Source: Panopea generosa
Lineage: Eukaryota; Mollusca; Bivalvia; Adapedonta; Hiatellidae
DNA: 64,000 nt
Direction of reading: 5' to 3'
Assembly: GCA_029582155.1 (NCBI GenBank)
Contig: CM055901.1
Span: 38,678,616-38,742,615, forward strand
The position numbers and the translations under genes are program-made. Of the stretch, positions 17,330 to 51,890 are shown piece by piece (position 1 is the first letter of the stretch; every line of letters begins with the position of its first letter). Below the pieces are notes generated by a model. It ran no database searches. It was not told the origin of the DNA and saw only the letters and a list, made by a program, of their open reading frames with translations.

Positions 17330-19818
17330 TTCCGTGTCATGTAAATCACCCGATATACTGATACCCTTCTCGCATACGCGCACACATATACACACATACT
17401 ATACATATGCATATACACTCACATGTATACTGACTTTGAGAAAAATAGTTATTTAAACTTACTGATTATCAGTTTGATTAATTCACGTAATTTTTTATAC
17501 TGGGCTTTATCTGATACGTTCATTATGCTTTTAAATTTAAGTATATTTTGTCGTACGTAGTACTTTGGTTTTAAGAATGTTTTGCGAGCAATAGTTAGTC
17601 CATTGCATACAAGTAAATAGTGGAATTCGTCACCAATATCTTGGTAACATATCGTACAGATCCTGTTTACTCTATTTATATTGTTCCATCTACCAACTAC
17701 AATTGGTAATTTATGATTTGCTGTTCTAAATTGTATAACATGTTTAAGGAATCGTGGTGGGGTAGTGATAAAGTATTTTTCAAAACAAAAACGTTATTTG
17801 AATAGTCTGTAAGTTGTGCAACTATCTGAATTTTCAATTGTACTGTACCATTCATTTAAAAAGAGATCTTTGAGCTTTTGATTTACTGATGCCTGGAGCC
17901 ATTTAACATTTGGAAAAAGATGGGTTTGTCATATAGCAATATGGCCACAATTAATTAAAATTGTTTTAATATGATCAAGCCAGCCAAAATGTTTTTTGTA
18001 GTTATTTCAGGTCGAGTATTATTATATTATTATATTGTGTGTACATGATGTTATAGATATTGAAAGATAATTTGTTTATGTTTTGTAGGACAATTTTAGA
18101 CCAGTATGAAATGGTTCTTATTTGTATGTCAACATAGATAGGCATGACACCTGTTTCTCCGTAAATAATACAATTTGGAGTAGAATTGTGTACATTAAGT
18201 ATATATTTTAAAAATCTTAGTTGTACTCATTCTATTATTTCATTTTTGCCATACCCCGATATTTCACATCCGTAGAGAAGAACTGGTTTTACAGTTTTAT
18301 TAAATATTTCTATTTGCATATCTATTGGTAGTGACAGACATTTAGCTTTTTTAATTAAACTATAGAGTGCCCTTGTACCTTGTTTTGCTATGTGTTTTTT
18401 AGCATTATAAAACGAGCCACTTCTGCTGAATAAAATGCCCAAATATTTATACTCTGTTACTATTTCTAAAGTTTGACCATGGTATGTGAAATGATAATTA
18501 GTTTGACGACCCTTTGAAAAAACTCGAACATTTGATTTGGTTATATTAACTGTTAACTTCCACAAATTACAATATTCTTGGTATGTATCTAAAGTGTTTT
18601 GAAGGTCGGTTGCAGTTTTGCAAACAATAACAGTGTCATCTGCATATAAAATAATAAATAATTTCAAAAAAGTATATAAAGTATCGTCATGGTCTGTTTG
18701 GTTTATGTTTACTCCATTTACAGTTCCACTATTTGCTATGTAATCATGTAGATCATTCAAGTAGAGGGAGAATAAAAAAGGTGAGAGGTTCTCCCCTTGT
18801 CTTACTCCAATATTGTAGGGAAAGCTATTTGAATATATACCTTTAACTGAAACGCTTGATTTAATATTATTGTACATATTTTTAATCAATTTCAAACATT
18901 TACCATTTATATCATATTTAATAAGTTTGGACCATAGTCCTAATCTCCATACTGTATCGAAAGCCCTTGTAAGGTCGATAAATGCACAGAGAAGTTTTTT
19001 CTTTTTATTATTTAATATTTGGATTAAAGAATGTAAAATAAAGATAATGTCAACAGTCGAAAATCCTTTCCGGAAACCAGCTTGATGTTCATTTATGATA
19101 TGGCTGTCAGCATATTTTTTCGATCTAGAATTTATAATTGACGTGAATAATTTACCCATACAACTTAGTAGGGTTATTGGTCTATAATTTTCAGCTTTAT
19201 GTGAGTCGCCTTTATTTTTAAATATTGGATTAATAATGCCATACGTCCATGCCCTAGGCACAATTCCAGTATCTAGGATTATGTTAAAAAATTTGACGTA
19301 TGTATAAATCAATGGTAATGTTGATTTTATGTGTTCATTTAATGTTTTGTCGATGCTGCATGACTTGTTCTTCCTTAAATTTATAGCATGTTTTTTTATT
19401 TCTTCTGCAGTTATAATACTATTATTTCCATATTGTCATTTTCGTCATTGTCATTATTATTCATATTTACATTGTACTGTTCATCCGTTCCACTTTCGTC
19501 AAAATTTACTTGTCTAAAATGGTCATACATATCGTTCAATGATGCTTTCACATCGTTTGTTTTATTACTGCTCAAGATGTTCCAGTATTTTTTCGAGTTT
19601 GACTTACCAAGAGCTTTTAGTTTGGAAATATTTTTGTTTATAAATTCAGAATTATATTTTCGTAAAGTCGATTTGTATGATCTACATTCGCTTTCCAAAT
19701 GTAATCTATTTGCTTCAGATTTATGCAATTTATATTGAAACTTGGCACGGTGGAATTTCTTTCAAGATTTGTTGCATTTACTACCAAACCAAGTAGGTAG
19801 TTTATTATTTGGGCCGTT
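17330..19818 (-). mobile_element. LINE-2nd copy, 3' part: reverse transcriptase and C-terminal domain
   Basis: This is a non-LTR retrotransposon on the minus strand. The linker (19728-19411) follows a 'PTWFGSKC' motif near 19790. The reverse transcriptase is open from 19312 to 18227, with 'NYRPITLLSC', 'HQAGFRKGFSTVDII', 'CAFIDLTRAFDTVW', 'GVRQGENLSPFLFSLYL' and catalytic 'YADDT'. After 18227 it continues in fragments to a C-terminal segment with 'NHKLPIVVGRW' and a CTIC…DEFHYLLVC knuckle, ending near 17452; the 3' UTR runs to roughly 17330. The RT core has an intact-looking 361-codon frame, while the rest is broken by stops and shifts. Its 5' side is cut by the DNA transposon at 19819 and continues at 24310-24526 and 28281-28600. 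Confidence 0.88.
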
Positions 19819-24815: not shown

Positions 24816-27800
24816 TTTAGAGTCCATGATTCATGGTCGTAAATTCTAATGATCAAATCATTATAAAGCAAATTTGAAATAAATAATCAATGTCAGATAT
24901 TTATTTAACTATATTCCTTTAATAAACAATCCATACATACAAGTATAATAACCTAGTAACAATCTAGATATGATAGATCAAAATATGAGACAATACATAT
25001 GTGTAAAACTGACTAGAATTTTTAAAAACATATATGAACAACTAAACATTTTCATATTTTAAAATATACAAAATGAGAAACAAACAATACGTGTTTATTC
25101 TGAAATTTGGCACAATGTCTTTTGAAATTTGGCACCTTTCTTATTATTTTTCTTGTTTTGTACATTCATTAATGAGTATTTGTGTCCATAGTTAAAATAG
25201 TTTTACTAAATGCACTATTGTTTGACACTTTCCTCTTGTAGAATTTTTGGAAAACACAATCTGTTTTCCAACCAGTAGTCCTCAACACTGTGTCAATTGG
25301 TACCTTTCCAGTCACTGCACTAGTTGACACCCCACTGGTACTTTGTGCACTGAAAATAGTCATGTCTATACCAGAATTTTTCAAAACTGCTTTAATCCAT
25401 TTTGAGATAGTAGAGATACTAACTCCCTTATGCGGTTTTTGGGAACTAAGAAACACCTTTGAAACATTATTTCTTAAAGTGTGCATTCTGTTTAAATATT
25501 CTTGAAATAACACGACCACACACAAATCTGTATTAAAAGGATATGCCTCAATGTAGATCTCTTCTAATTGATGGCCAGCCCTTGTTTGCTTTAGCAAATC
25601 CCCAAATCTAATTTTGATGTACCTTTCATTTATGTCAACATTTCTTATATCAATATAACACAGGGACTGACTTCTCTGTCCTGTAGTCAGTGCCAATAAC
25701 ATTGTTAACTTCATGTTTAATTGAAGTAATGATAGAGTAGTGTTTGGCTTCAGTGAACCTTAATAATGTAATACAACACTAACATCCCAAGTACAGTTGT
25801 ATTTTGGTAATGATGGTTTTAATTGAAAAATTCCTTTGTTTAATCAATATATGTGTCCCTATATGTATATTACTTAAAACATGCACAAAACTAGATACAG
25901 CAGATTTGGCTGTATTAATGACACTGTAACCCAGTCCTCTGTTATACAACTCAGTTAAGAACTGCACCACGTCCTTCACAGGTGGAGAAAATTTATTAAC
26001 TTTTTGTTCACCACAAAACAACAACCGTTTCGAGATATATGTCCCATATTGCTTTTGCGTGGTTGGTCTCCATGAAGAAATGATGATATCAGCAGCTTCT
26101 GATGAAAGGCCTTGATGACACATTCTTCCCTGAGATTTTGAAAACACATAATTGCAGTTTTTCCAATGGGTGATGTTGAAGTGTTTTCGGATGTGTCAAG
26201 ATTTGATTTCCCCTCGGTAATATGAATGGTAGAGCAATTACCATTTGTAACAACCGTGGAAACCATGGTTGGGTCGTAAAGAGTGGAGCAATCAATACTG
26301 CCCCCGCTTTGTCCTCCTTGATTTTTTGAAGTACTGCTCCCAGCACACTAAAAGGCGGAAACATATAAGCATTAAAATCATTCCAATTCAGCAAAAAACG
26401 CATTTATAGCAATTGATGCAGGGTCAGGTAAGTATGACTCATATCTCGGCATTCTACTGTTATTCGCAGCCTGCAAACATATCAATGTCACATTGGCCAT
26501 ACCTGTCCATAATAATGCTGAAAATGTCTTTGTCTAATGTCCATTCCATATCTGGATTTAGTTTTTGTCTACTCAGTACATCAGCATGAATGTTTAAACG
26601 ACCAGGTATGTGAAAAGCAGTAACATTATATTATGCCCTGCACACCACTCCCATATTTCTCTAGTGAGATCATTTAGGTCACTTTTCCTGCCCCCCATCT
26701 TGGAGATATATTTTAGTGCAGTTGTGTTATCTAAAAAGATTTGAACATGCTCATTTTTACGATTTGAATGGCGAGATATGCAGCCTTTAATTCTAAATAA
26801 CTTATATGATGTTTCTTGTCATCCTCAGACCAAATTCCACTAATGTCCTGCCCATTTGTAACATCTCGGGCCCCATATCCTGTTCTACTACTATCCGATT
26901 CAATTTTCATACTAGGTTTTCCTAAGATAATAGGTTTATAGGTTTTTCGCACATTATTAATCCACCATTTCAAACAATTTTTGCTAGAACTTGACAGTGT
27001 CATTGTATTATTAAAATTTACCCGTGCCTTTTTTAATTCCATATCTTTTTGTATTTCTAATGGTTTATAGTACAAAGGAGCATATAATACCCCAGCTTCA
27101 CTAGCTACTAATTTTCCAATTATTTGAGCAAATTCTCTAATTTTTATTTCTTTTTTCTTTAATATATTAGAACACTGATTAGCAATGTCTTCTGCCTTGC
27201 GTGTGGTTAGTCGTACGGTCATGTCTAAAGAGTACCTCAGATTTCTCGGGATGAGTTGTAAGGCCAATGCTGTCAACCAAGTCTATTGTGTCTTTCACAT
27301 TTTGTCTACAATCGTCAAAAGTGTCACTTTGAAGTAAAGCGTCATCAATATATGCAATGTTGATATGTCCAGCCTTTCGTGATGTTGAGAAAACAGGTTT
27401 CAACAGTTTTGTAAAAACTCTTGGTGCACTACTTAAACCATTTGGTAAGCATGTAAATTGATATAACCTGCCCTTCCATGTAAATCTTAGATATTTTCTA
27501 AATTGCTGTGCAATAGGTATACTGTAATAGGCATCTTTAAGGTCAATTTTTGCAAAGAAACAGTTTGGTTTCACTAAACTCAAGGCTAACTTTAATGTTT
27601 CCATTTTAAAATGTTTCTTCTCTATGTGTTCATTTAGATTACTAAGATTCAAAATTAATCTATGTGACCCATCATGTTTTGGTCTAATAAATATGTTTGA
27701 AATTATTTCTCCCTTGTCATGGACTGTTTCCTCAATAACATCCTTTTCTCTAAATGTAACTAATAATTTGTCAATTACGATATTTTCCTCCTCATTAAAG

Positions 27801-28280
27801 TGTATTTCTTTTCTGGAGCACTGACTGCAAGGGTCAGATTCAAATTCAATATGATACCCTTGACTAACCATTGCCAAAAAAGGGATGCATCGCTTGTAAT
27901 ACTTTTCCAATTTTCAACAAAATTTGCAATCTTTCCAGCCTGAAAAGTGGCTGGAGTATTACAAAGCTTCATAGTACTTAAATCAAATACTATTTCTGGT
28001 GTCCCTGATGTCCTTTCCTGAACTTCTTCTGTGTCGGGTAAGGGGGCTGTGTATGGCCTGCTTTCCATAAAAAAGAGCTCTGCTTTGATGCCTTTCCTTT
28101 GATGCCCAAATCTGCCAAAAGATTTTTCTCTTCTATCCCTTCTGTTATCCTTGTAGGGTTTATAGTTCGATTTCTGTGGCGTCTTAGATTTATATTGCAC
28201 CAAACTGTTGCCCAGTTTCCTACTATCATCAATGTCTTTCAACTGTTTGTTGATGTCGTAATTGGCGACGATTCGTTACA
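24527..28280 (-). mobile_element. DIRS-like tyrosine-recombinase retroelement, broken fossil
   Basis: The coding strand is minus. Parts in order: a basic N-terminal piece (about 28242-27775), a DIRS-type reverse transcriptase (about 27910-27179) with 'IDLKDAYYSIPI', 'YQFTCLPNGLSSAP' and a 'YIDDALL' catalytic box, an RNase H region (about 27276-26731), and a tyrosine recombinase/phage-integrase-like domain (about 26147-25169) with 'TTGQRSQSL' and a C-terminal Tyr region. At the low-coordinate end, 24527-24602 and 24699-24778 are inverted copies, and 24770-24815 repeats part of the same sequence directly. This fits the inverted terminal repeat plus internal complementary region of DIRS elements. 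No matching repeat is seen at the other end, so that end looks truncated. It is broken in several places and lies within the minus-strand LINE, so it is younger than that LINE. Confidence 0.8.
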
Positions 28281-31150: not shown

Positions 31151-31330
31151 CTCTTGATTGCTTGGTTTTGTCATCCGTCTCAATCAAATTTGTACTTTTG
31201 TGACAAATATTTAGAGATGAAACTGCCAATAAAACTGTATCAAGGAGTGGTTAGGTTAACTAATTGCCTGTTAGCCCTCAGTGACATAAAATGCGTTAAA
31301 AATATTCAGTCAATATTTAATTAATTCCAG

Positions 31331-31403
31331 ACTTACTCTATGTTGGAGGCCCAGTACAGAGCAGTGATGAAGAAGCTGCAGTTCCAGACATGTGAAATTC
31401 CTG
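31331..31403 (+). CDS. Host gene exon B (24 codons plus one base)
   Basis: The acceptor is TTAATTCCAG (ends 31330) and the donor is the very strong CTG|GTAAGT at 31404. In phase 0, the phase left by exon A, it is fully open and reads TYSMLEAQYRAVMKKLQF…, ending with one base of a split codon (phase 1). That base completes a Val codon with exon C, so exons B and C encode 49 codons. The 'YRAVMKKLQF' stretch looks like an amphipathic helix. It reminds me of the segment just before the ubiquitin-conjugating core in BIRC6-type giant E2 proteins, but that is only a memory lead. The last 23 bases and the donor have been amplified into the array that follows. Confidence 0.7.
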
Positions 31404-34400
31404 GTAAGTGTGCTTACTGAGATTTGTAGCAAGTGATTGTTTATGTGATGTTGAATTGTTTGTCATGTTTCCAGATATGTGATATTCCTGGTAAGTGTGC
31501 TTACTGAGGATTTGTAGCAAGTGATTGTTTATGTGATGGTGAATTGTTTGTCATGGTTCCAGATATGTGATATTCCTGGTAAGTGTGCTTACTGAGATTT
31601 GTAGCAAGTGATTGTTTATGTGATGATGCATTGTTTGTCATGGTTCAAGGTATGTGATATTCCTGGTAAGTGTGCATAATGAGATTCGTAGCAAGTGTTT
31701 GTTTATGTGATGGTGCATTGTTTGGTCATGGTTCCAGACATGTGATATTACTGGTAAGTGTGCATACTGAGATTTGTAGCAAGTGTTTATGTGATGGTGC
31801 ATTGTTTGTCATGGTTCCAGATATGTGATATTCCTGGTAAGTGTGCTTACTAACATTTGTAGCAAGGGATTGTTTATGTGATGGTGCATTGTTTGTCATG
31901 GTTCCAGATATGTGATATTCCTGGTAAGTGTGCATACTGAAATTTGTAACACGTGATTGTTTATGTGATGGTGCATTGTTTGTCATGGTTCCAGACATGT
32001 GATATTCCTGGTGTGCATACTGAGATTTGTAGCTAGTGTTTGTTTATGTGATGGTGCATTGTTTGTCATGGTTCAAGGTATGTGATATTCCTGGTAAGTG
32101 TGCATACTGAGATTCGTAGCAAGTGTTTGTTTATGTGATGGTGCATTGTTTGGTCATGGTTCCAGACATGTGATATTCCTGGTAAGTGTGCATACTGAGA
32201 TTTGTAGCAAGTGTTTATGTGATGGTGCATTGTTTGTCATGGTTCCAGATATGTGATATTCCTGGTAAGTGTGCTTACTAAGATTTGTAGCAAGGGATTG
32301 TTTATGTGATGGTGCATTGTTTGTCATGGTTCCAGATATGTGATATTCCTGGTAAGTGTGCTTACTGAAATTTGTAACAAGTGATTGTTTATGTGATGGT
32401 GCATTGTTTGTCATGGTTCCAGACATGTGATATTCCTGGTAAGTTTGCTTACTGAGATTTGTAGCAAGTGATTGTTTATGTGATGGTGCATTGTTTGTCA
32501 TGGTTCCAGATAATGTGATATTCCTGGTAAGTGTGCATACTGAGATTTGTAGCAAGTGTTTATGTGATGGTGCATTGTTTGTCATGGTTCCAGATATGTG
32601 ATATTCCTGGTAAGTTTGCATACTGAGATTTGTAGCAAGTGTTTATGTGATGGTGCATTGTTTGTCATGGTTCCAGACATGTGATATTCCTGGTAAGTGT
32701 GCATACTGAGATTTGTAGCAAGTGTTTATGTGATGATGCATTGTTTGTCATGGTTCCAGATGTGATATTCCTGGTAAGTGTGCATACTGAGATTTGTAGC
32801 AAGTGTTTATGTGATGGTGCATTGTTTGTCATGGTTCCAGACATGTGATATTCCTGGTAAGTGTGCATAATGAGATTTGTAGCAAGTGTTTGTTTATGTG
32901 ATGGTGCATTGTTTGTCATGGTTCCAGATATGTGATATTCCTGGTAAGTGTGCATACTGAGATTTGTAACAAGTGTTTGTTTATGTGATGGTGCATTGTT
33001 TGTCATTGTTCCAGACATGTGATATTCCTGGTAAGTGTGCATACTGAGATTTGTAGCAAGTGTTTATGTGATGGTGCATTGTTTGTCATGGTTCCAGATA
33101 TGTGATATTCCTGGTAAGTGTGCATACTGAGATTTGTAGAAGGTGTTTATGTGATGGTGCATTGTTTGTCATGGTTCCAGATAATGTGATATTCCTGGTA
33201 AGTGTGCATACTGAGATTTGTAGCGAGTGTTTATGTGATGGTGCATTGTTTGTCATGGTTCCAGATATGTGATATTCCTGGTAAGTGTGCTTACTGAGAT
33301 TTGTAGCAAGTGTTTGGTTATGTGATGGTGCATTGTTTGTCATGGTTCCAGATATGTGATATTCCTTGTAAGTGTGCATATTGAGATTTGTAGCAAGTGT
33401 TTATGTGATGGTGCATTGTTTGTAATGGTTCAAGGCATGTGCTATTCCTTGTAAGTGTGCATACTGAGATTTGTAGCAAGTGTTTATGTGATGGTGCATT
33501 GTTTGTCATGGTTCCAGACATGTGATATTCCTGGTAATTGTGCAAACTGAGATTTGTAGCAAGCGTTTATATGATGGTGCATTGTTTATCATGGTTCCAG
33601 ATATGTGATATTCCTGGTAAGTGTGCATACTGAGATTTGTAGCAAGTGTTTATGTGATGGTGCATTGTTTGTCATGGTTCCAAATATGTGATATTCCTGG
33701 TAAGTGTGCATACTGAGATTTGAAGCAAGTGTTTATGTGATGGTGCATTGTTTGTCATGGTTACAGATATGTGATATTCCTGGTAAGTTTGCATACTGAG
33801 ATTTGTAACACATGTTTGTTGATTTGATGGTGCATTGTTTGTCATGGTTCCAGATAATGTTATATTCCTGGTAAGTGTGCATACTGAGATTTGTAGAAAG
33901 TGTCTATGTGATGGTGCATTGTTTGTCATGGTTCCAGATATGTGATATTCCTGGTAAGTTTGCATACTGAGATTTGTAACACATGTTTGTTGATTTGATG
34001 GTGCATTGTTTGTCATGGTTCCAGATAATGTTATATTCCTGGTAAGTGTGCATACTGAGATTTGTAGAAAGTGTTTATGTGATGGTGCATTGTTTTTCAT
34101 GGTTCCAGATATGTGATATTCCTGGTAAGTGTGCATACTGAGATTTGTAGCAAGTGTTTATGTGATGGTGCATTGTTTGTCATGGTTCCAGATATGTGAT
34201 ATTCCTGGTAAGTGTGCATACTGAGATTTGTAGCAAGTGTTTATGTGATGGTGCATTGTTTGTCATGGTTCCAGATATGTGATATTCCTGGTAAGTGTGC
34301 ATACTTAGATTTGTAACACTGTGTTTGGTTATGTGATGGTGCATTGTTTGTCATGGTTCCAGATGTGATATTCCTGGTAAGTGTGCATACTGAGATTTGT

Positions 34401-34580
34401 AGCAAGTGTTTATGTGATGGTGCATTGTTTGTCATGGTTCCAGACATGTGATATTCCTGGTAAGTGTGCATACTGAGATTTGTAGCAAGTGTTTATGTGA
34501 TGGTGCATTGTTTGTCATGGTTCCAGACATGTGATATTCCTAATAAGTGTGCATACTGAGATTTGTAACAAGTGTTTGTT
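31381..34580 (+). repeat. 83-87 bp minisatellite built from an exon end and splice donor, about 37 copies
   Basis: Each unit runs from GTTCCAGACATGTGATATTC through CTG and GTAAGTGTGC, then ACTGAGATTTGTAGCAAG, to a GTGCATTGTTTGTCATG end. The first unit is the true exon/intron boundary (31381-31403 exonic), with GAAATTCC where most copies read GATATTCC. Length varies by a 4 bp block (TGTTTATG versus TGTTTGTTTATG). Nearly every copy keeps CTGGTAAGT and an upstream TTCCAG, so it offers a donor and an AG acceptor 16 bases apart. Minus-strand ORFs here (TNNAPSHK repeats) are by-products of units whose length is 87 bp. Confidence 0.95.
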
Positions 34581-34675
34581 TAAGTGAATTATGGCGGATA
34601 ATACCCACCATATCTCGAATCATTGATGCATGCTAATTATTGTCTTGTTGATACTGTTTAACATTCAGCTTAAAG

Positions 34676-35631
34676 GTAGTTATAACCATTTGTGTCAAGA
34701 AATAGTTGCTTGATTGTAGGTTAGACCGTTGGTGTAAAGAAATAGTTGCTTGATTGTAGGTAAGACCATTGATGTAAAGAAATAGTTGCTGGATTGTAGG
34801 TTAAACCATTGGTGTAAAGAAATAGTTGCTTGATTGTAGGTTAGACCATTGGTGTAAAGAAATAGTTGCTTGATTGTAGGTTAGACCATTGGTGAAAAGA
34901 AATAGTTGCTTGATTGTAGGTTAGACCATTGGTGTAAAGAAATAGTTGCTTGATTGTAGGTTAGACCATTGGTGTAAAGAAATAGTTGCTTGATTGTAGG
35001 TTAGACCATTGGTGTAAAGAAATAGTTGCTGGATTGTAGGTTAGACCATTGGTGTAAAGAAATAGTTGCTTGATTGTAGGTTAGACTGTTTATAACCATT
35101 TGTGTGAAGAAATAGTTGCTGGATTGTAGGTTAGACCATTTATAACCATTGGTGTAAAGAAATAGTTGCTGGATTGTAGGTTAGACCATTTATAACCATT
35201 GGTGTAAAGAAATAGTTGCTGGATTGTAGGTTAGACCATTAATAACCATTTGTGTCAAGAAATAGTTGTTTGATTGTAGGTTAGACCATTAATAACCATT
35301 TGTGTCAAGAAATATTTGCTTGATTGTAGGTTAGACCATTTATAACCATTTGTGTCAAGAAATAGTTGCTTGATTGTAGGTTAGACCATTTATAACCATT
35401 GGTGTAAAGAAATAGTAGCTTGATTGTAGGTTAGACCATTAATAACCATTTGTGTCAAGAAATAGTTGTTTGATTGTAGGTTAGACCATTTATAACCATT
35501 TGTGTCAAGAAATAGTTGCTGGATTGTAGGTTAGACCATTTATAACCATTTGTGTCAAGAAATAGTTGCTTGATTGTAGGTTAGACCATTTATAACCATT
35601 TGTGTAAAGAAATAGTTGCTTGATTGTAGCT
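34676..35631. repeat. 40 bp and 50 bp minisatellite
   Basis: The core is AAGAAATAGTTGCTTGATTG with TAGGTTAGACCATT. The first half (34676-35090) uses a 40 bp unit. The second half uses a 50 bp unit formed by adding TATAACCATT or AATAACCATT. The array ends exactly where the truncated LINE begins (TTGATTGTAG|CTCC). About 20 units in all. Confidence 0.95.
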
Positions 35632-38465: not shown

Positions 38466-39335
38466 AATTATAAAGGGTGAGTACTGAGTGTTGTTTCCTG
38501 GGTAGAAGTAGTACTGAGTGTTGTTTCCTGGGTAGAACTAGTACTGAGTGTTGTTTCCTGGGTAGAAGTAGTACTGAGTGTTGTTTCCTGAGATGAACCA
38601 GTACTGAGTGTTGTTTCCTGGGTAGAACGAGTACTGAGTGTTGTTTCCTGGGTAGAAACAGTACTGAATGTTGTTTCCTGGGTAGAAGTAGTACTGAATG
38701 TTGTTTCCTGGGTAGAACTAGTACTGAGTGTTGTTTCCTGGGTAGAAGTAGTACTGAGTGTTGTTTCCTGAGATGAACCAGTACTGAGTGTTGTTTCCTG
38801 GGTAGAACGAGTACTGAGTGTTGTTTCCTGGGTAGAAACAGTACTGAATGTTGTTTCCTGGGTAGAAGTAGTACTGAATGTTGTTTCCTGGGTAGAAACA
38901 GTACTGAGTGTTGTTTCCTTGGTATAAGTAGTACTGAGTGTTGTTTTCTTGGTAAAACTAATACTGAGTGTTGTTTCCTGAGATGAACCAGTACTAAGTG
39001 TTGTTTCCTGAGATGAACCAGTACTGAGTGTTGTTTCCTGAATAGAAACAGTACTGAATGTTGTTTCCTGGGTAGAACTAGTACTGAATGTTGTTTCCTG
39101 CGTAAAACTAGTACTTAGTGTCATTTCCTGGATAGAATTAGTACTGAGTGTTGTTTCCTGAGTAGAAACAGTACTGAATGTTGTTTCCTGGGTAGAACTA
39201 GTACTGAATGTTGCTTCCTGCGTAAAACTTGTACTTAGTGTCATTTACTGGGTAGAATTAGTACTGAATGTTGTTTCCTGGGTAGAACTAGTATTTAGTG
39301 TTGTTTCCTGGGAAGAATTAGTTCTGAGTGTTGTT
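38466..39335. repeat. 30 bp minisatellite, segment 1
   Basis: The unit is GTACTGAGTGTTGTTTCCTG plus GGTAGAACTA (30 bp), about 29 copies, with variants that recur as 5-7-unit blocks (for example 38580-38700 and 38760-38880). The minus-strand Thr/Ser-rich ORF (repeating STQETTLSTS) spans it because the unit is a multiple of three. Confidence 0.95.
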
Positions 39336-41633
39336 TTTAGCTCTACTGGCCAAAGGCCAGAAGTGCTTATGCGATGACGCGTTGTCTGTCGTCCGTCGTC
39401 TGTCGTCAGACGTCTGTCGTCTGTTAGCAGCACTTTCTCTGAAACCACTAGGCCAATTAAACTGAAACTTCACATGGATGTTTCTATTGCATATGAGACT
39501 AAACAGAAGATTTTTTTTTTTTATCTGAAATTCAAGATGGCCACCATTACTAAAAATAGTCCAAAACTTAAAAAATCTTCTTCTCATGAATGGCCCAACA
39601 GATTTTCAAAATTTTTATGTAGTAATGATGACCAACTATAGTTTTGTTAGATTTGTTCAAATGCTGTTCCTAGGGTTAAATATGACCTCGCCCTGAGGGA
39701 TCAATTAGGGGACACATGTCATTATAATATTTTTTTTTTTTTTTATACCCCCGACAAACGAAGTTTGAGGGGGTATATTGGAGTCACCCTGTGGTCGGTC
39801 TGTCGGTCAGTCTGTCCGTTGCAATTTTCCTTGTCCGGAGCATCACTTGAAAAGTACTGGATGGAATTTCATGAAACGTCATACAATGGTAGAATATAAT
39901 GAGAGGAAGTGCAGTGTACAAGAAACATAACTCTATTCTTGCTATTTACAGAGTTATTGCCCTTTGATATATTTCCCTTGTCCGGAGCATTACTTTTAAA
40001 GTACTGGATGGAATTTCATCAAACTTCATACAATGGTAGAATATAATGACAGGAAGTGCAGTGTACAGGAAACATAACTCTATTCTTGCTAATTACAGAG
40101 TTATTGCCCTTTGATATATTTCCCTTGTCCGGAGCATTACTTTTAAAGTACTGGATGGAATTTCATCAAACTTCATACAATGGTAGAGTATAATGACAGG
40201 AAGTGCAGTGTACAGGAAACATAACATTTATTGATTGCCATGAAAGCTTATACACTGCACAATGATTAAAAAGACCGTTTTTAATTTTAACAAAACCATA
40301 AAAAAATTAACAATACAAAAAACTCAATCCATAACATTCTCTTTTATTAAGTTTTTTTTTTGTCTGGAGCATAACTTTAAAACTATTGGATATAATTTAA
40401 TAAAACTTCATACAATGGTAAACCATTTTCTGTCATGGCGGCGTTCGGGGGTATTCATCACCTTCAGTGATAGCTCTAGTTTTTTTTAAAATGGAAATGA
40501 TTTTGCCTATATCTTCACAGAAGCATTGTTTGGTGAAGGAGGTTCAGATTTGTAAAAATGACTGGGTTCCACTGTCTTAAGGGGTCAGGAGGGGCCCCAA
40601 AAGGGTAAAAATTGGGAATTACTAAATTTGTTTTTTTAAAGAACCGGTATGTCAGATTTGTTCATATTTTGCATAAATTATCCCTATGTGTAGGGGTTTG
40701 ATTGCAGATAAGAGTTTAGGGGCTAAAATTTATAGGGGCCCTGTAAGGGGACTTAGAATTTTACATAGGGATACTATGGGAAAACAGAAAATTTTCTTTT
40801 TCTTTCATTTGTTTTGAAACCACTAGGCCAATTAAACTGAAATTTCACACGCATGTTTCTTTTGCGTAGGAGACTATACAGAAGATTTTTTTTTTATCTG
40901 AAATTCAAGATGGCCGCTGTTACTAAAAAACTTAAAAAATCTTCTTCTCATGAACGGCCCAACAGATTTTCAAAATGTTTATGTAGTAATGATGACCAAC
41001 TATAGTTTTGTTAGATTTGTTCAAAAAGTGTCCCTAGGGTTAAATATGACCCCGCCCCGAGGGTTCAATTAGAGGACACATGTTATTATAATATTTTTTT
41101 TTTTTTTTTTTTATAAAATGGAAATGATTTTGCCTATATCTTCACAGAAGCATTGTTTGGTGAAGGAGGTTAAGATTTGTAAAAAATGACTGGGTTCCAC
41201 TGTCTTAAGGGGTCAGGAGGGGCTCCAAAAGGGTACAAATTGGGAATTACTAAATTTGTTTTCTTAAGAACCGGTATGTCAGATTTGTTCATATTTGGCA
41301 TAAATTATCCCTGTGTGTAGGGGTTTGATTGCAGATAAGAATTTAGGGGCTAAAATATATAGGGGCCCTGTAAAGGGGACTTAGAATTTTACGTAGGGAT
41401 ACTGTGGGAAAACAGAAAATTCTCTTTTTTTTCATTTATTCTGAAACCACTAGGCCAATTAAATTGAAACTTCACATGGATGTTTCTGTTGCATAGGAAA
41501 CTATACAAAAGATTTTTTTTTTCTATCTAAAATTCAAGATGGCTGATGTTTCTATGGCATAGTAGAATTTCAAAAAGTGCTATGGCCACTATGAGTCAGT
41601 AGAGCGTCCTCAGGCCCTCTTGGGCCTCTTGTT
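39336..41633 (+). mobile_element. Hairpin-ended element A inside the 30 bp array
   Basis: It starts TTTAGCTCTACTGGCC with hairpin CTGGCC AAA GGCCAG (39345-39359) and ends with AGTAGAGC (complement of the start GCTCTACT), hairpin AGGCCC TCTT GGGCCT and CTTGTT (41600-41633). The interior has two and a partial third unit of about 630 bp ('GAAACCACTAGGCCAATTAA' through 'GGAAAACAGAAAATT'), the first split by element B. It is non-coding. The 30 bp array resumes on the other side. Confidence 0.75.
39741..40482 (+). mobile_element. Hairpin-ended element B nested in element A
   Basis: It begins in a T-run with hairpin ATACCCCC…GGGGGTAT (39745-39776), followed by GTCGGTCTGTCGGTCAG. Three imperfect units of about 150-180 bp ('CCTTGTCCGGAGCAT', 'AAAGTACTGGATGGAATTTC') follow. 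It ends with hairpin ATCAC CTTCA GTGAT and AGCTCTAGTT (40456-40482). It is non-coding. It shares the two-hairpin, T-rich-junction design with element A but no sequence. Confidence 0.65.
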
Positions 41634-41635
41634 AT

Positions 41636-43512
41636 GGGTAGAAGTAGTACTGAGTGTTGTTTCCTGGGTAGAAGTAGTACTGAGTGTTGTTTCCAGGGTA
41701 AAACTAGTACTTAGTGTTGTTTCCTGGGCAGAACTGGTACTGAGTGTTGTTTCCTAAGTAGAACCAGTACTGGGTTGTTTCCTGGGACAACTGTTTAAAC
41801 AAGCCAAAATAATATATTGAAAAGGGATTTCCTAACTTCGGCTACATGCTTAGGTTAGACTAAAATAGATTTCCCGCTTAAAATTGCAACATATTTGTGA
41901 TGTGTCAAATTGGTCACATGATTTCATTTAATTTTAATTTGATCTGTTTTACAGGACTGGTTTACTCATGATAAACAATGTTTCATCTTAGAAAAAGTAC
42001 GAATGACGACACATAGGTCGTCGAACAGTATTTAAGTGCTTTCTATTTATAGAATGGGGATTTCGTTTGGACTTTACCAATCTAATTTAAATATCGATTT
42101 TGTCATGTTTTGGATGGTTTGACATACCAAACCATTGGGATTGTGTTATCTATGATAATCAGAGGCATTTTATCCATTTAAAAAATAATTTATTTTTTTT
42201 TATATATTTATAGCGTTTTTTTCTCATATACTCACTTTAAAATTATAATTGATCATCAAACTTTCACGACAGCACAATGACTAGTTACAGAGAAACAGGG
42301 CAATTCTCAGCCCATTTTCTGGGTAGAACCAGTACTGAGTGTTGTTTCCTGGGTAGAACCAGTACTGAGTGTTAGTGTTATTTCCTGAGTAGAACTGGTA
42401 CTGAATGTTATTTCCTGGGTAAAACTAGTACTGAGTGTTGTTTCCTGAGTAGAACCGGTACTGAGTGTTATTTCCTGGGTAAAACTAGTACTAAGTTTCA
42501 CTTCCTGGGTAGAATTAGTACTGAGTGTTGTTTCCTAAGTAGAACCAGTACTGGGTTGTTTCCTGGGTAGAAGTAGTACTGAGTGTTGTTTCCTGGATAA
42601 AACTAGTACTAAGTGTTGTTTCCAGGGTACAAGTAGTACTGAGTGTTGTTTCCTGGGTAGAAGTAGTACTAAGTGTTGTTTCCTGGGTAGAAACAGTACT
42701 GAGTGTTGTTTCCTGTGTAAAACTAGTACTAAGTGTTTTTTTCCTGAGTAGAACTAGTACTGAGTGTTGTTTCCTGCGTAGAAGTAGTACTGAGTGTTGT
42801 TTTCTGGGTAGAAGTAGTACTGAGTGTTGTTTTCATAGGGTAGAAGTAGTACTGAGTGTTGTTTCCTGGGTAGAAGTAGTACTGAGTGTTGTTTCCAGGG
42901 TAAAATAGTACTTAGTGTCGTTTCCTTGGCAGAATTAGTACTGAGTGTTGTTTCCTAAGTAGAACCAGTACTGGGTTGTTTCCTGGGACATCTGTTTAAA
43001 TATGCCAAAATAATATATTGAAAAGGGATTTCCTAACTTCGGCTATGTGCCTAGGTTAGACTAAATAGATTTCCCGCTCAAAATTGCAACATATTTGTGA
43101 TGTGTCAAATGGGTCACATGATTTCATTTGATTTTAATTTGATCTGTTTTACATGTTTACTCATGATAAACAATGTTTCATCTTAGAAAAAGTACGAATG
43201 ACGACACATAGGTCGTCGAACAGTATTTAAGTGCTTTCTATTTATAGAATGGGGATTTCGTTTGGACTTTACCAATCTAATTTAAATATCGATTTTGTCA
43301 TGTTTTGGACGGTTTGACATACCAAACCATTGGGATTGTGTTATCTATGATAATCAGAGGCATTTTATCCATTTTAAAAATAATTTTATTTTTTTATATA
43401 TTTATAGCGTTTTTTTCTCATATACTCCCTTTAAAATTATAATTGATCATCAAACTTTCATGACACCACAATGACTAGTTACAGAGAAACAGGGCAATTC
43501 CCAGCCAATTTC
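41636..43512. repeat. 30 bp array with two copies of a 525 bp spacer block (higher-order repeat)
   Basis: Minisatellite stretches at 41636-41786 and 42312-42986 alternate with non-minisatellite blocks 41787-42311 and 42987-43512. The blocks are near-identical ('GAAAAGGGATTTCCTAACTT', 'CATAGGTCGTCGAACAGTAT', 'GGTTTGACATACCAAACCAT'), differing by scattered substitutions and a few short indels. The repeat period is about 1.2 kb. The blocks have no ORF. Confidence 0.85.
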
Positions 43513-44053
43513 TGGGTAGAACCAGTACTGAGTGTTAGTGTTATTTCCTGAGTAGAACTGGTACTGAGTGTTATTTCCTGGGTAAAACTAGTACAAAGTG
43601 TCACTTCCTGGGTAGAAATAGTACTGAGTGTTGTTTCCTACGTAGAACCAGTACTGGGTTGTTTCCTGGGTAGAAGTAGTACTGAGTGTTGTTTCCTGGA
43701 TAGAACTAGTACTAAGTGTTGTTTCCAGGGTAGAAGTAGTACTGAGTGTTATTTCCTGGGTAGAAGTAGTACTAAGTGTTGTTTCCTGGGTAGAAACAGT
43801 ACTGAGTGTTGTTTCCTGGGTAGAACTAGTACTGAGTGTTGTTTCCTGAGTAGAACTAGTACTGAGTGTTGTTTCCTGGGTAGAATTAGTACTGATTGTT
43901 GTTTTCTGGGTAGAAGTAGTACTAAGTGTTGTTTCCTGAATAGAACTAGTACTGAGTGTTGTTTCCTGGGTAGAAGTAGTACTAAGTGTTGTTTCCTGAG
44001 TAGAGCTAGTACTGAGTGTTGTTTCCTGGGTAAAAGTAGTACTGAGTGTTGTT
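43513..44053. repeat. 30 bp minisatellite, segment 3
   Basis: It continues the same unit after the second spacer block, about 18 copies, up to the second copy of element A. Confidence 0.93.
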
Positions 44054-44416
44054 TTTAGCTCTACTGGCCAAAGGCCAGAAGTTCTTATGCGCCTTGTCTG
44101 TAGTCCTTCGTCTGTCGTCTGTTAGCAGCACTTTCTCTGAAACCACTTGGCCAATTAAACTGAAACTTCACATGCATGTTTCTGTTGCATAGTTAAAAAC
44201 GTAAAAAATCTTCTTCTCATGAACGGCCAAGCATATTTTCAAAATGTTTATGTAGTTATGATGACCAACTATAGTTTTGTTAGACTTGTTCAAATCTTGT
44301 CCCTAGGATTAAAAATGACCCTGCCCTGATATTTCTATTGCATAGGAGAATTTCAAAAAGTGCTATGACCACTATAAGTCAGTAGAGCGTCCTCAGGCCC
44401 TCTTGGGCCTCTTGTT
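44054..44416 (+). mobile_element. Short copy of hairpin-ended element A
   Basis: Its ends are identical to element A (TTTAGCTCTACTGGCC start; CTTGGGCCTCTTGTT end) but most of the interior is missing (362 bp versus 2.3 kb). It joins the 30 bp array at the same position of the unit as the long copy (…GTGTTGTTT|TTAGCTC). Confidence 0.75.
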
Positions 44417-44417
44417 C

Positions 44418-45205
44418 TGGGAATAACTAGTACTATGTGTTGTTTCCTGGGTAGAAGTAGTACTGATAGTTGTTTCTGGGTAGAAGTAGTACTAAGTGTT
44501 GTTTCCTTGGTAGAAACAGTACTGAGTGTTGTTTCCTGGGTAGAAGTTGTACTGAGTGTTGTTTCCTGGGTAGAAGTAGTACTGAGTGTTGTTTCCTGGG
44601 TAGAACTAGTACTGAGTGTTGTTTCCTGGGTAGAAGTAGTACTGAGTGTTGTTTTCTTGGTAGAAGTAGAACTAAGTGTTGTTTCCTTGGTAAAAACAGT
44701 ACTGAGTGTTGTCTACTGGGTAGAAGTAGTACTAAGTGTTGTTTCCTGAGTAGAACTAGTACTGAGTGTTGTTTCCTGGGTAAAAGTAGTACTGAGTGTT
44801 GTTTTCTGGGTAGAACTAGTACTATGTGTTGGTTTCCTGGATAGAAGTAGTACTAAGTGTTGTTTCCTGGGTAGAAACAGTACTGATTGTTGTTTCCTGG
44901 GTAGAAGTAGTACAGAGTGTTGTTTCCTGGGTAGAACTAGTACTAAGTGTTGTTTCCTGAGTTAAACCAGTACTGAGTGTTGCTTCCTGGGTAGAACCAA
45001 TACTGAGTGTTGTTTCCAGTACTGAGTGTTCTGGGTAGAAGTAGTACTAAGTGGTGTTTCCTGGGTAGAACTGTACTGAGTGTTGTTTATTGGTAGAACC
45101 AGTACTGAGAGTTGTTTCCTTGGTAGAAGTAGTACTAAGTGTTGTTTCCTGGGTAGAAACAGTACTGAGTGTTGTTTCCTTAGTAGAATCAGTACTAAGT
45201 GTTAT
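44418..45205. repeat. 30 bp minisatellite, segment 4
   Basis: About 26 units, becoming irregular after 44990, where partial units and indels appear before the array ends. The two overlapping + strand ORFs here (VVSWVEVVLS and CCFLGRSSTE repeats) are frame by-products of the 30 bp period. Confidence 0.93.
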
Positions 45206-45694
45206 TTTTGAGAGACCATCAGGTTGAGCTGTTGATCGAACTTGCAACGGGCAGTTGTTTTTGTTAGCCTGTTGATCTGCTGCTTTTACAAAAATGCAAA
45301 TTTTGTGGCGCAAATCACAGTTTGCGATGAAATTTTGTGTACACTATGATGTATAGATGTATGTGACATAAACAAATATTTTGTGTACAAGATTTGGTTA
45401 GTGTAAATAATCATCATAATGTGTGTGCCCTAGACCCGAACCATGAGGAGTTTTGGCCCGTAAACTTATATTTATCTGTTGATTGTCATACTGAAACTTG
45501 TGTTGCAAACTTCATCCATAGTTTGTGTTTCATTTCAATGAAACTTGGTGTACACTTTAAACATGATGGGCAGTTTTGTGTAACATGTATTTTTCCAGCT
45601 ATTTTTTCATTTCTTTATCTTTAAATCAAATTGGGTCATTTATTTTGAATTTATGGCTGAATCTATATTCAAAAGAACCTTAACTTGCTTCTTA
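45206..45694. other. Non-repetitive spacer between two arrays
   Basis: A short + strand ORF (45394-45624) has no recognisable motif. The minus strand near 45230-45250 has GCAAGTTCGATCAAC, box B-like, but no box A partner at tRNA spacing. Nothing firm is supported. Confidence 0.4.
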
Positions 45695-47899
45695 GGCTTA
45701 CTGCAGTGCTTTATCTTGATGGAGGCAATGAGGGGATAAAGATCATTTTCATTGATATGTTTACTTACTGCTTAGGCTTACTGCAGTGCTTCATTGTGAT
45801 GGAGGCATTGAGGGGATAAAGATCATTCTCATTGATATGTTTAAATGCTGCTTAGTCTTACTGCAGTGCTTCATTGTGATGGAGGCATTGAGGGGATAAA
45901 GATCATTCTCATTGATATGTTTAAATGCTGCTTAGTCTTACTGCAGTGCTTCATTGTGATGGGGGCATTGAGGGAGTATAGGTCATTCTGATTGATATGT
46001 TTACTTGCTGCTTAGGCATACTGCAGTGCTTCATTGTGATGGGGGCACTGAGGGAGTATAGGTCATTCTGATTGATATGTTTACTTACTGCTTAGGCTTA
46101 CTGCAGTGCTTCATTGTGATGGAGGCATTGAGGGGATATAGATCATTCTCATTGATATGTTTACTTGCTACTTTGGCTTACTGCAGTGCTTCATTGTGAT
46201 GGAGGCATTGAGGGGATATAGATCATTCTCATTGATATGTTTACTTGCTGCTTAACCTTACTGCAGTGCTTCATTGTGATGGGGGCATTGAGGGGGTGTA
46301 GATCATTCTCATTAATATGTTTACTTGCTGCTTAGGCTTACTGCAATGCTTCATTGTGATTGGGTCATTGAAGGGGTATAATTATTTCTCATTGATATGT
46401 TTACTTGCTGCTTAGGCTTACTGCAGTGCTTCATTGTGATATTGGCATTGAGGGGATATTGATAATGCTTATTGATATGTTTACTTGCTGCATAGGCTTT
46501 TCTGCAGTGCTTCATTGTGATGGGGGCATTGAGGGGATATAGATCATTCTCATTGATATGTTTACTTGCTGCTTAACCTTACTGCAGTGCTTCATTGTGA
46601 TGGGGGCATTGAGGGGGTGTAGATCATTCTCATTGATATGTTTACTTGCTGCTTAGACTTACTGCAGTGCTTCATTGTGATGGGGGCATCAAGGGGTGTA
46701 GATCAATCTCATTGATATGTTTACTTGCTGCTTAGGCTTACTGTTGTGCTTCATTGTGATGGAGGCATTGAGGGGATATAGATCATTCTCATTGATATGT
46801 TTACTTGCTCCTTAGACTTACTGCAGTGCTTCATTGTGATGGGGGCATCAAGGGGTGTAGATCAATCTCATTGATATGTTTACTTGCTGCTTAGGCTTAC
46901 TGTTGTGCTTCATTGTGATGGAGGCATTGAGGGGATATAGATCATTCTCATTGATATGTTTACTTGCTCCTTAGACTTACTGCAGTGCTTCATTGTGATG
47001 GGGGCATCAAGGGGTGTAGATCAATCTCATTGATATGTTTACTTGCTGCTTAGGTTTACTGCAGTGCTTTATTATGATGGGGGCATTGAAGGGGTATAGA
47101 TCATTCTCATTGATATGTTTACTTGCTTCTAAGACTTACTGCAGTGCTTCATTGTGATGGGGGCATCAAGGGGGTGCAGATCATTCTCATTGATATGTTT
47201 AGTTGCTGCTTAGGCTTACTGCAGTGCTTTATTGTGATGGGGGCTTTAAGGGGCTGTAGATCATTCTCATTGATATGTTTACTTGCTGCTTAGGCTAACT
47301 GCAGTGCTTCATTGTGATGGGGGGCTTTGAGGGGGTCTATATCATTACCATTGATATGTTTACTTGCTGTTAAGCTGACTGCAGTGCTTCATTGTGATGG
47401 GGGCATCGAGGGATGTAGATCATTCTCACTGATATGTTTACTTGCTGCTTAGGCTTACTGCAGTGCTTTATTGTGATGAGAGCATCGAGGGGGTATAGAT
47501 CATTCTCATTGATATGTTTACTTGCTGCGTAGGCTTATTGCAGTGATTCATTGTGATGGGGGCATTGAGGAGGTGTAGATTATTCTCATTGATATGTTTA
47601 CTTGCTGCTTAGACGTACTGCAGTGCTTCATTGTGATGGAGGCATTGATGGTTTGTAGATTATTCTCATTGGTATGTTTACATTCTGCTAAGGCTTACTG
47701 CAGTGCTTCATTGTGATGGAGGCATTGAGGGGGTGTAGATTATTCTCATTGATATGTTTACTTGCTGCTTAGGCTTACTGCAGTGCTTCATTGTGATGGA
47801 GGCATCGAGGGGGTGTAGATCATTCTCATTGATATGTTTACTTGCTGCTTAAGGATATTGCAGTGATTCATTGTGATGGGGGCATTGAGGAGGTGTAGA
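45695..47899. repeat. 80 bp minisatellite, block 1 (about 27 copies)
   Basis: The unit includes TTACTGCAGTGCTTCATTGT, GATGGGGGCATTGAGGGGG, TATAGATCATTCTCATTGAT and ATGTTTACTTGCTGCTTAGG. Units diverge by 5-15% and several 2-3-unit blocks are repeated in order (for example 46640-46860 and 46810-47010). Interrupted at 47900 by a DNA transposon. Confidence 0.95.
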
Positions 47900-50800
47900 G
47901 CGTAATCTAGAAATGGTTTTTTTCCCCCCCCCAGGGGCAATTTTGTAGACTATAATTTTTTGAAAGTCTATTTTATGACAACAATTTTAAGAAATGTTTA
48001 CGCACTGGCCGTTGGGGCGTTTGTAAATTACAGCATTTTAAAATATGTTACCTTAAAAAATTTAAAAAAAAAATCATACTTTTTACTTTAAAAAAAATGT
48101 CTTAAAATAAACAGTAAATGTAGGAAACTGTCTTATTTCAAATTTACAGGATGTATACAATAAAAGTAATTGTTTTCAGATAGAAATTATCTATTTTTCT
48201 CATGACTAAGAATGCTGTAGTTTACGTTACTGCTAAAATTGCTATTAATTTTGTTTAACAACAAGCATTAAAAGGATATGTCATTTATTATGGAAAAAAC
48301 TTTTAATAACAAATGAAGCTACATGCAATACTGATGAAAATGCCATCAACTCTATTCAAGTTTCACATGTATATAACATGTATATAACGTTGTTATAATA
48401 GTATAAAACTATGTTACATGTCATTTTTATTAAACAAAGAAAACACACACTGAGTATTTGTGGTCAATTAACAATATTTATTTTACATTAAACATAGCTT
48501 ATGACAACAAATCAAACCACATACATAATTAATGACAAAAATTTACATATTGGGACGAATGTGTATATAATAATACATTACCTTAAGCCCAAATTACGTT
48601 ACACCCAATTTTAATGTTAACAAGACTAGATACATTGACTGAATATTCTGCTCATTAATAATGCCATTTTTAACATGATAGAAAATGAGCAACACACCCT
48701 ACCTATGCAAATTACACGATGAAATGATAATGCTACAGTAAAAAATGTTACATAAAATACAAATAAAATGACTACATATATTGACTAGAAAATTATAACA
48801 CCGCTCATCACGATATTACATGCATTGATGGTTTAATACAAAATCATTCAAACACAATTACATATAAAACAGACTTACTGCTGCATGCAGATAACTGATT
48901 TACGTTGCCTTGATTAAGGAATGAATCTATATTAAGGAGATAAGTATCATTATTCAAATAAAATTTACCAATGTTTGAAAATTAAGGAGGAAAGAAGTTG
49001 TTTAGTAAAAATAAACAACTTATTAAATCATGTTCATATTGACACTCTTTAAAGTTTGTGTACTTTACATGATATAATACATGCAACGTTGTACCAGATG
49101 TTCCAAACAAAACACATCGACATAATACTGTAGTCAGTATCCAAGTCATCTTCAAAGACATGTCAGTCATATTATCAAGTTTTAATTCGTCATCTTCTTC
49201 AGACTCAGACTCATGGAGGGAGTAAACTCATGTCGATGCTGTTATACGAATCTAGAATATTGCCTCGTCCCTGGTTCTTTTTTTGCAGAACGTGTCAAAT
49301 CTTAATTTGTTTACATGTGTATACTTTGGTTTACCATACATACAGCAGACATACTTTTCAATGCCCTCAAGCAATTCATCAGTGCATTCGTGTTCTTCAC
49401 CTAGTTTAAACAGTGCAGAAATATATTCGGGGTACTTTTCTACGATTTTTAGGGGAAGTGTTTTCCCTCTTCTTACGAACACACTCGTTGTGTCACACCC
49501 CATGAAACTGTGAATTGCTGGTAGTATTGAACAGATGTCTTCTCCTTTGTTTTCAGCAATCTCATTAACATTGAGAAGTCGTCGCTTGTTTCCTACACCA
49601 GTATTAAATAAAACAGTCCTGCTTATTTCTCTGGAGTACTTTGTAAGCAACACCAAGACATCTGTATCTGGAGATCTTACTATGACCTGGACTGTTGCAG
49701 GCTCTTTATCTCTAATGTGTAGACAGTGAAGTATGATTCGAGTGTCTGCCTCTTCATAAGATGAGAACAAAGCTTCTTCGGGATGCACTTCAACCGTGGC
49801 ACCGTCATGACAAGAGAGACTGTTACACATTTCTCCAAGGACATAGTGGATATGTCGACCTTGAAGCTTTTTGGCATAATTTTCAGTTTTCCATTGGTCG
49901 AAGAGCAGACGTAACAATTGTGTTTTGTTGTCATCGTTGGCCATAAAAGCCTTCCAGTCCTTAGGAGTTCTTGTTTTTTGACCAGATAACAGAAAGTTTG
50001 GGTAGATCCCCTTCTCTTGCGCTCAAATGATTTGATTGATGTGGGGTAATAAGTATCGGTGACAATCAACCCAACCATATTTTGGAAGCAGATTGAATAC
50101 AGTTGTTGGTTCGATGGCTGATTCTAGCAAATGCATCAATTTCGCCTTGTCAGTTTTCACAGGCATTCTTCAGCTGTCGCTTAGGACCAAGGAACTGGGC
50201 CAAGAGGAAAGGATAGTGTTAACTCAAGATCGATGTCATGCTGCAAAGACAGAAGCACCAGTTGCCCGAAGATGTTTCGTTCTGCTTTAATCTGAGTGAT
50301 TTTGTCAAAAATTTTGTTAAGATCTGCCTCGCTATTTCGTATTTTTGCAGGCTGGAGTTATTTATGGACCGATGCCTCTTCGGAAGCCATGTCTGTTACC
50401 TGCAGGATTGCCTCGACATATTTGGCTCTGCAATGACGAGTTTTACACCAGCGGAGTAATTGCGACTGAAACCAATAATACCTCCTTGGCATTTCGCATG
50501 TTTGTTGATTGTTTGTTCGATGTTTATATCAACAGGGTTTCCGGAGTTAGGCACAGAGGACCTCGAAACACTAAATCAGTTGCGTTTTAGCAGCTCCATG
50601 GCCCTTGGATGTGTAGTATCCAAATTCATTAGAGTCATCAGATACACTGGAACATATCTGGCATAGTTGTGGTGGTCATAGGCAAAGAACAGAGGACACA
50701 GTCTGTAGAGTGCGGCTATATGTACCTCTAAGTTGTTTTCCTTAGTGGCCTTGATAAGTGTCAGTATCATATGGATGATGTCGATGTTACGTAACCAAAA

Positions 50801-51890
50801 CTGAGCAGTTTTGCTACTGTCACCATTTCTGATGGATTCTTTGAATTCAATGTAGCGCTCAAAATAGTCATTACATTGCTGGGATGCCAATACTTGTGCT
50901 AATTTGTACTCAGTAAGATCTTGAGCAAGGTCATATAGCATGGTGAGTGAATCTTCAGAAATATTTTCAATGCAAGGGTTAATGTTTTCAAAACGTTTCA
51001 TTAGCAAGCGTTCAAGACACTCGGTAACCAGTTTATGAACTCTCAGAGCAAATTTTTATTTTTCAATGTTTGTTAAATCTCTTTGCACAATTTATTGATT
51101 TTGGGTATAACCTGCTTTGATATGTGTTTTGACCAGAGACGTATTTATATATACATTATGTAAACGTCTTTCACTTTGTTTTGACATTTTGTTGACTAAT
51201 TTAATGTTAAACTATGCATTTTTATAATTTCAATTTAGGTAAGGTAAATCCGGTAACGAAGGTTATTTCAGTTTTTTTTTGTATTACATACTATATCAGA
51301 CTATTCATGCAGTAAAACTGCAATATTTTGTTCATTAAATATTTAAAACGGTAAAACATATACATCAACATGAAATGTAATAATGCAAGATATCACTAAA
51401 TGTAACGTAAATTACACAGACGTAAGCATCACAATTACAGAAAAGTTACATTTCTACTTTATTTGGCATCCAGTAAATAACACAATCCAGTATATCTCTT
51501 GGGATTATGTTACATTAATCGAATTTACTCTTGTGTGTAATATTTTGATTTAAAAAAAGAGTTATTTATGTAACGTAGTTCCAGTAACGTAATATACACC
51601 GACTCTTTTGATGTCACAATATCAGAAACTGATACAAAAACATAACTGCTATGAGAAAGTGAGTTTTTAGGATGAATACATACACTCTAATTGCATTTGT
51701 ATTTATACCAAGAATATGATATGAAAGAATAAGGGTAACGTATTTTAAATGTACGTTACGCACTAAAGCCCCAACGCTCAGTACGTAAACATGTCTCAAT
51801 TTCTGGCATTTTTCCTGAAGTTTAAGAAAATCATACCCAAATAAATTGCCCCTAGGGGGGGAGCAGGGTCTATTGGCCGATCAAAGTCTA
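47900..51890 (-). mobile_element. 4.0 kb DNA transposon with about 160 bp inverted ends and 7 bp target duplication
   Basis: GTGTAGA of the array unit occurs on both sides (47893-47899 and 51891-51897). The ends are imperfect inverted repeats over about 160 bp, sharing a C-tract, AGGGGCAATTT, ATGTTTACG, CGTTGGGGC and a GTTACC box (47900-48052 against 51728-51890). The very tips match poorly (CTAGA). The interior is AT-rich with many TAACGT/ACGTTA motifs near both ends, and holds one decayed minus-strand gene (49180-51010). Insertion is younger than the array. Confidence 0.75.
49180..51010 (-). pseudogene. Decayed gene of an invertebrate repetitive family with an SPDTDVLVLL nuclease-like motif
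   Basis: The minus strand reads, N to C: a helical region (51007-50576) with 'LVKATKENN'-like text and 'NYARYVPVYLMTLMNL'. Broken middle pieces follow. Then comes an open 230-codon segment (49944-49252) with 'EEADTRIILH', 'RSPDTDVLVLL', 'NKRRLLNVNEIA', 'IHSFMGCDTTSVF' and 'NKLRFDTFC'. Acidic residues in EADT, SPDTD and GCDTT are spaced like a PIN/FEN-type nuclease fold; that reading is inference. From memory, this protein type recurs in many bivalve and cnidarian assemblies as uncharacterised proteins. Several frame changes and stops between 50080 and 50580 break it. Being the only gene between the inverted ends, it is the candidate transposition protein. Confidence 0.65.

Follow-up and report, generated by a model that had tools for sequence, protein, structure and literature searches.

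A tandem array resembling donor-spanning minisatellites at a predicted exon end of a putative BIRC6 homologue in the bivalve Panopea generosa

Introduction

Tandem repeats that reach across a 5′ splice site have been described in human genes. The VNTR of ABCA7 intron 18 begins at the exon 18 donor, whose GT supplies its first two bases (PMC5954066). The human reference has 23.7 of its 25-bp units, and people carry about 12 to 427. RNA shows that one unit can be retained through use of the next donor, giving a frameshifting minor product that makes up 2 ± 1% of isoforms across the tissues examined. This product is unchanged by VNTR length, and longer arrays show more exon 19 skipping and lower expression (PMC5954066). 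The 31-bp VNTR of human CBS bears the formal name c.1444_1467+7(16_21) (PMC2630376), which in our reading denotes 16–21 repeats of a unit with 24 exonic and 7 intronic bases. Internal tandem repeats at exon–intron boundaries have also changed the gene structure and splicing of human paralogues in segmental duplications (PMC2812944), and in the Rogers model of intron gain the tandem duplication of an exonic AGGT creates a new intron and does not alter the protein (PMC4974935). One search of open-licence PMC papers turned up no bivalve array of this sort. Here we describe an array of this appearance in a window of 64,000 nucleotides of Panopea generosa contig CM055901.1, to which all coordinates refer; it would show that the donor-spanning minisatellites of human ABCA7 and CBS have counterparts beyond mammals.

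Results and discussion

Structure of the array

Tandem Repeats Finder (TRF) delimits the array at 31381–34577, with a period of 83, 37.7 copies, 91% matches and a score of 5045. Splitting the units at the TTCCAG-like anchor gives 38 of them: 37 full units of 81–88 nt and a last unit of 58 nt. The first unit (u01, 31381–31467, plus strand) includes the end of a predicted coding exon (31331–31403) and is the putative founder: it comprises the last 23 bases of the exon and the first 64 of the intron, with the exon's own donor CTG|GTAAGT at their junction. The predicted true 5′ splice site, GTAAGT at 31404–31409, adjoins the exon. Beyond the first unit lie 37 extra copies (31468–34577, plus strand), 36 full and one partial, most of which carry an acceptor-like TTCCAG, an exon relic of 14–17 nt and a decoy donor, as judged from TRF, segmentation and alignment. 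The amplification of an exon end and its donor about 37 times in tandem, which the original prediction had read from the sequence, is borne out by these counts.

The donor 9-mer CTGGTAAGT is intact in 33 of the 38 units, and so is TTCCAG, with 29 units holding both; the claim that most copies keep an intact donor and an upstream TTCCAG therefore stands. All 33 occurrences of the 9-mer in the window lie within the array; outside it, GTAAGT is found 12 times and TTCCAG 18 times. Since 32 of the 37 later units have the same nine bases, the true donor is indeed followed by dozens of near-identical decoys. Of the 37 later copies, 22 align with the whole of the last 23 exon bases (31381–31403), 21 or 22 positions being identical, at a limit of E 0.01; two further copies match over 15 and 22 bases, and 13 fall below the limit. 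An AG…GT arrangement is retained in 35 of the 37 later copies, u28 and u38 lacking either the AG or the GT. The potential microexon thus bounded was predicted to measure 16 bases, which holds for 29 of these 35 copies and fails for six, where its length is 17 nt (four copies) or 14 nt (two copies). At E 0.01, neither the unit consensus nor the first unit matches any part of the window beyond the array, and the 30-base core pattern of the array has no exact match in viral_contigs. An 11-base match between the 3′ flank and the part of the unit missing from the last copy, of the kind that erosion of that copy would leave, is weak: 76 of 2000 shuffles reach the same.

The array resembles the donor-spanning VNTRs of ABCA7 and CBS and appears, from this one sequence, to be of the same kind, although the original prediction knew of no named family of such repeats and both are already published (PMC5954066, PMC2630376). 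It is anchored at the exon–intron boundary, starting at 31381 inside the predicted exon, and the donor is copied in its units, of which 37 of 38 have GT in the donor position and 35 of 38 have GTAAGT after the exon end. As in ABCA7, the array includes the exon's own donor and runs to tens of units, but the ABCA7 unit has 25 bp and is intronic as described, whereas the units here have 81–88 bp and include 23 exon bases. For ABCA7, length variation and splicing effects have been measured; the array described here is known from its sequence, as is the acceptor-like TTCCAG of most units, an additional feature that may set it apart from the human repeats. The CBS unit likewise crosses the exon–intron boundary, to judge from its formal name, but is shorter, and its copies are fewer than here. 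Alternative donors are reportedly discussed for the CBS VNTR in Lievers 2001. The repeats of the segmental duplications are also minisatellites at exon–intron boundaries, but the published description gives them units of 30 bp and 4 copies on average, in human paralogues. In the Rogers model, as here, a tandem duplication that crosses an exon/intron boundary brings splice signals together; unlike an intron made from AGGT with the protein unchanged, the array places AG and GT 14–17 nt apart, and the inclusion of a single unit breaks the frame, none of 35 such inclusions being in frame.

Consequences for the message and selection on splice motifs

When each of the 36 other GT donors is used to extend the exon, all 36 extensions meet the same TGA, at intron bases 15–17 after the true donor. 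Inclusion of a single microexon leads to a stop for 29 of the 35 candidates and to a frameshift for the other six. Splicing into the array would therefore be mostly non-productive, as far as the two exons in view show. We consider it probable that the array is a neutral minisatellite, which arose by tandem duplication of an exon–intron junction in a BIRC6 homologue and is tolerated with the first donor mostly used. This donor is the sole one joined to the whole exon and would be expected in most transcripts; occasional use of a decoy would give a frameshifted or early-stopped mRNA, as the stops and frames above indicate, which would then presumably be lost. Of the outcomes that the original prediction had considered, a tolerated array whose first donor wins is the one that fits best, on the supposition that this donor is in fact the one used, whereas a useful role for variable or recursive splicing is not supported: all 36 extensions meet the early TGA, and no single microexon is in frame. 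Strength alone cannot explain a choice of the first donor, because most decoys are identical to it. With 32 copies of its nine bases behind it at the head of a long intron, the predicted true donor makes the locus a natural experiment on 5′ splice-site choice and on how far exon context or position governs it.

The most serious competitor holds that the array is a dosage device, in which the decoys would bind U1 and send part of the transcripts into nonsense products, the amount of BIRC6 protein thereby depending on array length. Most of the decoy products examined are non-productive, as such a device would have them, and in the published account of ABCA7 the VNTR length is inversely related to expression and positively to exon 19 skipping (PMC5954066). 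Against it, neither donor nor acceptor shows a significant excess of conservation. The donor 9-mer survives intact in 32 of the 36 full extra copies. Of 75 nine-column stretches, however, 22 equal or surpass this figure, and the median is 28. Substitutions per column come to 0.33 in the donor, 0.83 in the acceptor, 1.19 in the microexon and 1.07 in the rest of the intron, against an average of 1.01. As few substitutions as in the donor are found in 20 of 83 circular shifts (38 of 83 with gaps counted), and the acceptor ranks 51st of 83 (46th of 83 with gaps counted). The donor columns tend to low change, but within what chance allows (not significant), and with 22 of 75 stretches as well kept and circular shifts at 20 of 83 for the donor and 51 of 83 for the acceptor, selection for the splice motifs is unsupported. 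The ABCA7 analogy also cuts the other way, since there the unit-retention product is reported as unaffected by length (PMC5954066). We regard the dosage device as unlikely. At the same time, longer ABCA7 arrays altered splicing and expression in that account (PMC5954066), so the full neutrality of the present array is not assured. A more elaborate proposal makes most units complete splicing cassettes of acceptor, 14–17 nt relic and donor, the whole forming a length-dependent sink to nonsense through which copy number tunes BIRC6. If true, a donor VNTR would here have turned into a two-sided microexon array that tunes an apoptosis regulator; we find this unlikely.

RNA structure was also considered for the array and rejected: the two-unit consensus folds at -34.7, no better than the mean of -35.5 for mononucleotide shuffles, and the exon with two units likewise folds no better than such shuffles. 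No inverted repeats of at least 14 bases (seed 9) were found in 31300–34700, and Rfam gave no match at gathering score in the whole window.

The host exon

The exon at 31331–31403 (plus strand) encodes TYSMLEAQYRAVMKKLQFQTCEIP plus one nucleotide and ends in a phase 1 donor. Among solved structures, the top phmmer match of its 24-residue peptide is human BIRC6 (Bruce/apollon) at E 0.14, with 13 of 20 aligned residues identical. In the reverse direction, an 88-residue stretch of human BIRC6, identical to two deposited chains, locates 31343–31399 by tblastn at E 0.002, the second-best place in the window having E 1.6, and the score of the exon against this segment is reached by none of 20000 shuffles. 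The predicted next coding exon (60482–60555, plus strand; VEGGYCHHYASLLSSSNSRQSTKSQ; donor GTAACA) is weaker by itself, as 190 of 20000 shuffles reach its score. The two exons join in phase 1 with no stop; no shuffle out of 20000 reaches the score of the joined sequence, and the top phmmer match of the joined 49-residue peptide is again human BIRC6 (E 0.1). The match, a short stretch with moderate E-values, falls just before the E2 (UBC) domain, whose exons in the BIRC6 homologue would lie beyond the end of the window. A study of oyster IAP genes describes, from two oysters, BIRC6-like proteins that combine a UBC domain with a BIRC6 domain (PMC8917759). The exon thus looks to be coding and to come from a BIRC6 homologue, a reading drawn from 49 codons with single-search E-values of 0.1–0.14, and its coding nature agrees with the original prediction, as the BIRC6 match of 31331–31403 is continued by an in-phase exon at 60482–60555.

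An exon that is not real, or a gene copy that is dead, would deprive the donor motif of meaning. The 49 codons in view and the weak E-values against the PDB (0.14 and 0.1) leave some room for this, but 13 identities in 20 aligned residues with human BIRC6, the lack of a stop and an in-phase second exon that moderately matches the next part of BIRC6 make it improbable. Other matches were set aside: REH1 with the exon peptide (E 1.6) was taken as noise, spike glycoprotein chains with the joined peptide (E from 0.93 up, among the best 60 of 125 matches) as chance, and Pfam returned for the exon peptides one chance-level match, to the DNA polymerase II insertion domain (E 0.13).

Origin and direction of growth

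The exon copy differs from the array at an informative place. A Glu codon (GAA) is present in u01 only, its A being replaced by T in the 36 other full units, and human BIRC6 also has Glu at this place. Identity to u01 is 0.943 in u02 and 0.954 in u03, a value shared by u13, and falls as low as 0.85–0.86 between u24 and u32, with exceptions. Over u02–u37 it drops along the array (Spearman -0.51, p 0.0014), and does so in the intron columns alone (Spearman -0.57, p 0.0003); without u04–u13 the gradient is weaker (Spearman -0.43, p 0.028). These p values are optimistic, because the units are not independent but related by later duplications: u04/u09, u05/u10 and u06/u11 differ by one position within each pair. 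The derivation of the array from exon end and donor, as first proposed, gains from both the Glu codon confined to u01 and the identity that declines with distance, and growth in this direction, and not the reverse, is most likely on the unit comparisons. The opposite order, in which the exon end would derive from a pre-existing array, can appeal to the 23 bases that exon and units have in common, which carry no direction by themselves; these bases, however, encode FQTCEI, aligned with human FDTFEM, the Glu codon is in the exon copy only and identity to u01 declines with distance from the exon, so we hold an array-first origin to be very improbable.

We infer that a segment made up of the 23 terminal bases of the exon, the donor and 64 bases of intron underwent tandem duplication. 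Unequal exchange or slippage would then have expanded it to 38 copies, with homogenisation of those lying away from the exon. The units owe their acceptor-like motif to the duplication, which put the exon bases GTTCCAG behind the T-rich intron end TTGTTTGTCATG; most copies would thereby have come to resemble an acceptor with a microexon of 14–17 nt.

Microexon combinations and recursive splicing

Combinations of microexons were counted up to quadruples, with the frame judged on the two exons in view. Among ordered pairs, 54 of 595 are both in frame and open; for triples the count is 28 of 6545 and for quadruples 471 of 52360. By arithmetic from the segmentation, neighbouring units would be separated by introns of about 67–72 nt. 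A juxtaposed AG|GT (AGGTRWG), the hallmark of recursive splice sites, is found in two units, u04 at 31647 and u09 at 32075, where AAG|GTATGT is like a recursive splice point, and is not a general feature of the units; with this motif confined to u04 and u09, and donors not significantly better kept than other stretches, the recursive splicing originally envisaged is not upheld. That the units act as microexons or recursive splice points to generate protein variants is the least probable reading of all, for although AG…GT persists in 35 of 37 later units, some pairs stay open in frame and two units have AAG|GTATGT, no single inclusion is in frame, open triples and quadruples are as scarce as counted above, AG|GT is juxtaposed in those two units only and the introns between neighbouring units would span only about 67–72 nt.

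Intron context and neighbouring elements

The predicted intron (31404–60481, plus strand) spans 29,078 nt, of which 18,552 nt (63.8%) lie in nine tandem tracts taken from TRF rows. Arrays have thus grown in this intron generally, and one that touches the exon end would need no special cause. One 80-bp unit is common to the arrays at 45683–47899 and 51891–60351. The roughly 4 kb between them contain minus-strand reading frames at 49255–50022 and 50579–51055, which have no Pfam match at E 0.01; this stretch is possibly an element inserted into one array. A 30-bp repeat family (CTGGGTAGAACTAGTACTGAGTGTTGTTTC and rotations) forms four further arrays in the same intron, at 38480–39336, 41635–41786, 42315–42987 and 43537–45207. 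Past the exon at 60482–60555 a 41-bp array of about 76 copies (60734–63942) starts after 178 bases, so that this exon sits between two very long arrays.

Remains of non-LTR retrotransposons are found at 4500–5021 (plus strand), 9383–10048 (plus strand) and 18230–19435 (minus strand): an endonuclease match, whose E of 0.0001 lies below the Pfam cut-off, and two matches to reverse transcriptase. On the minus strand, at 25172–25759 and 27182–27913, matches to a tyrosine recombinase (phage integrase family) and to a reverse transcriptase lie near each other, an arrangement known from DIRS-like elements.
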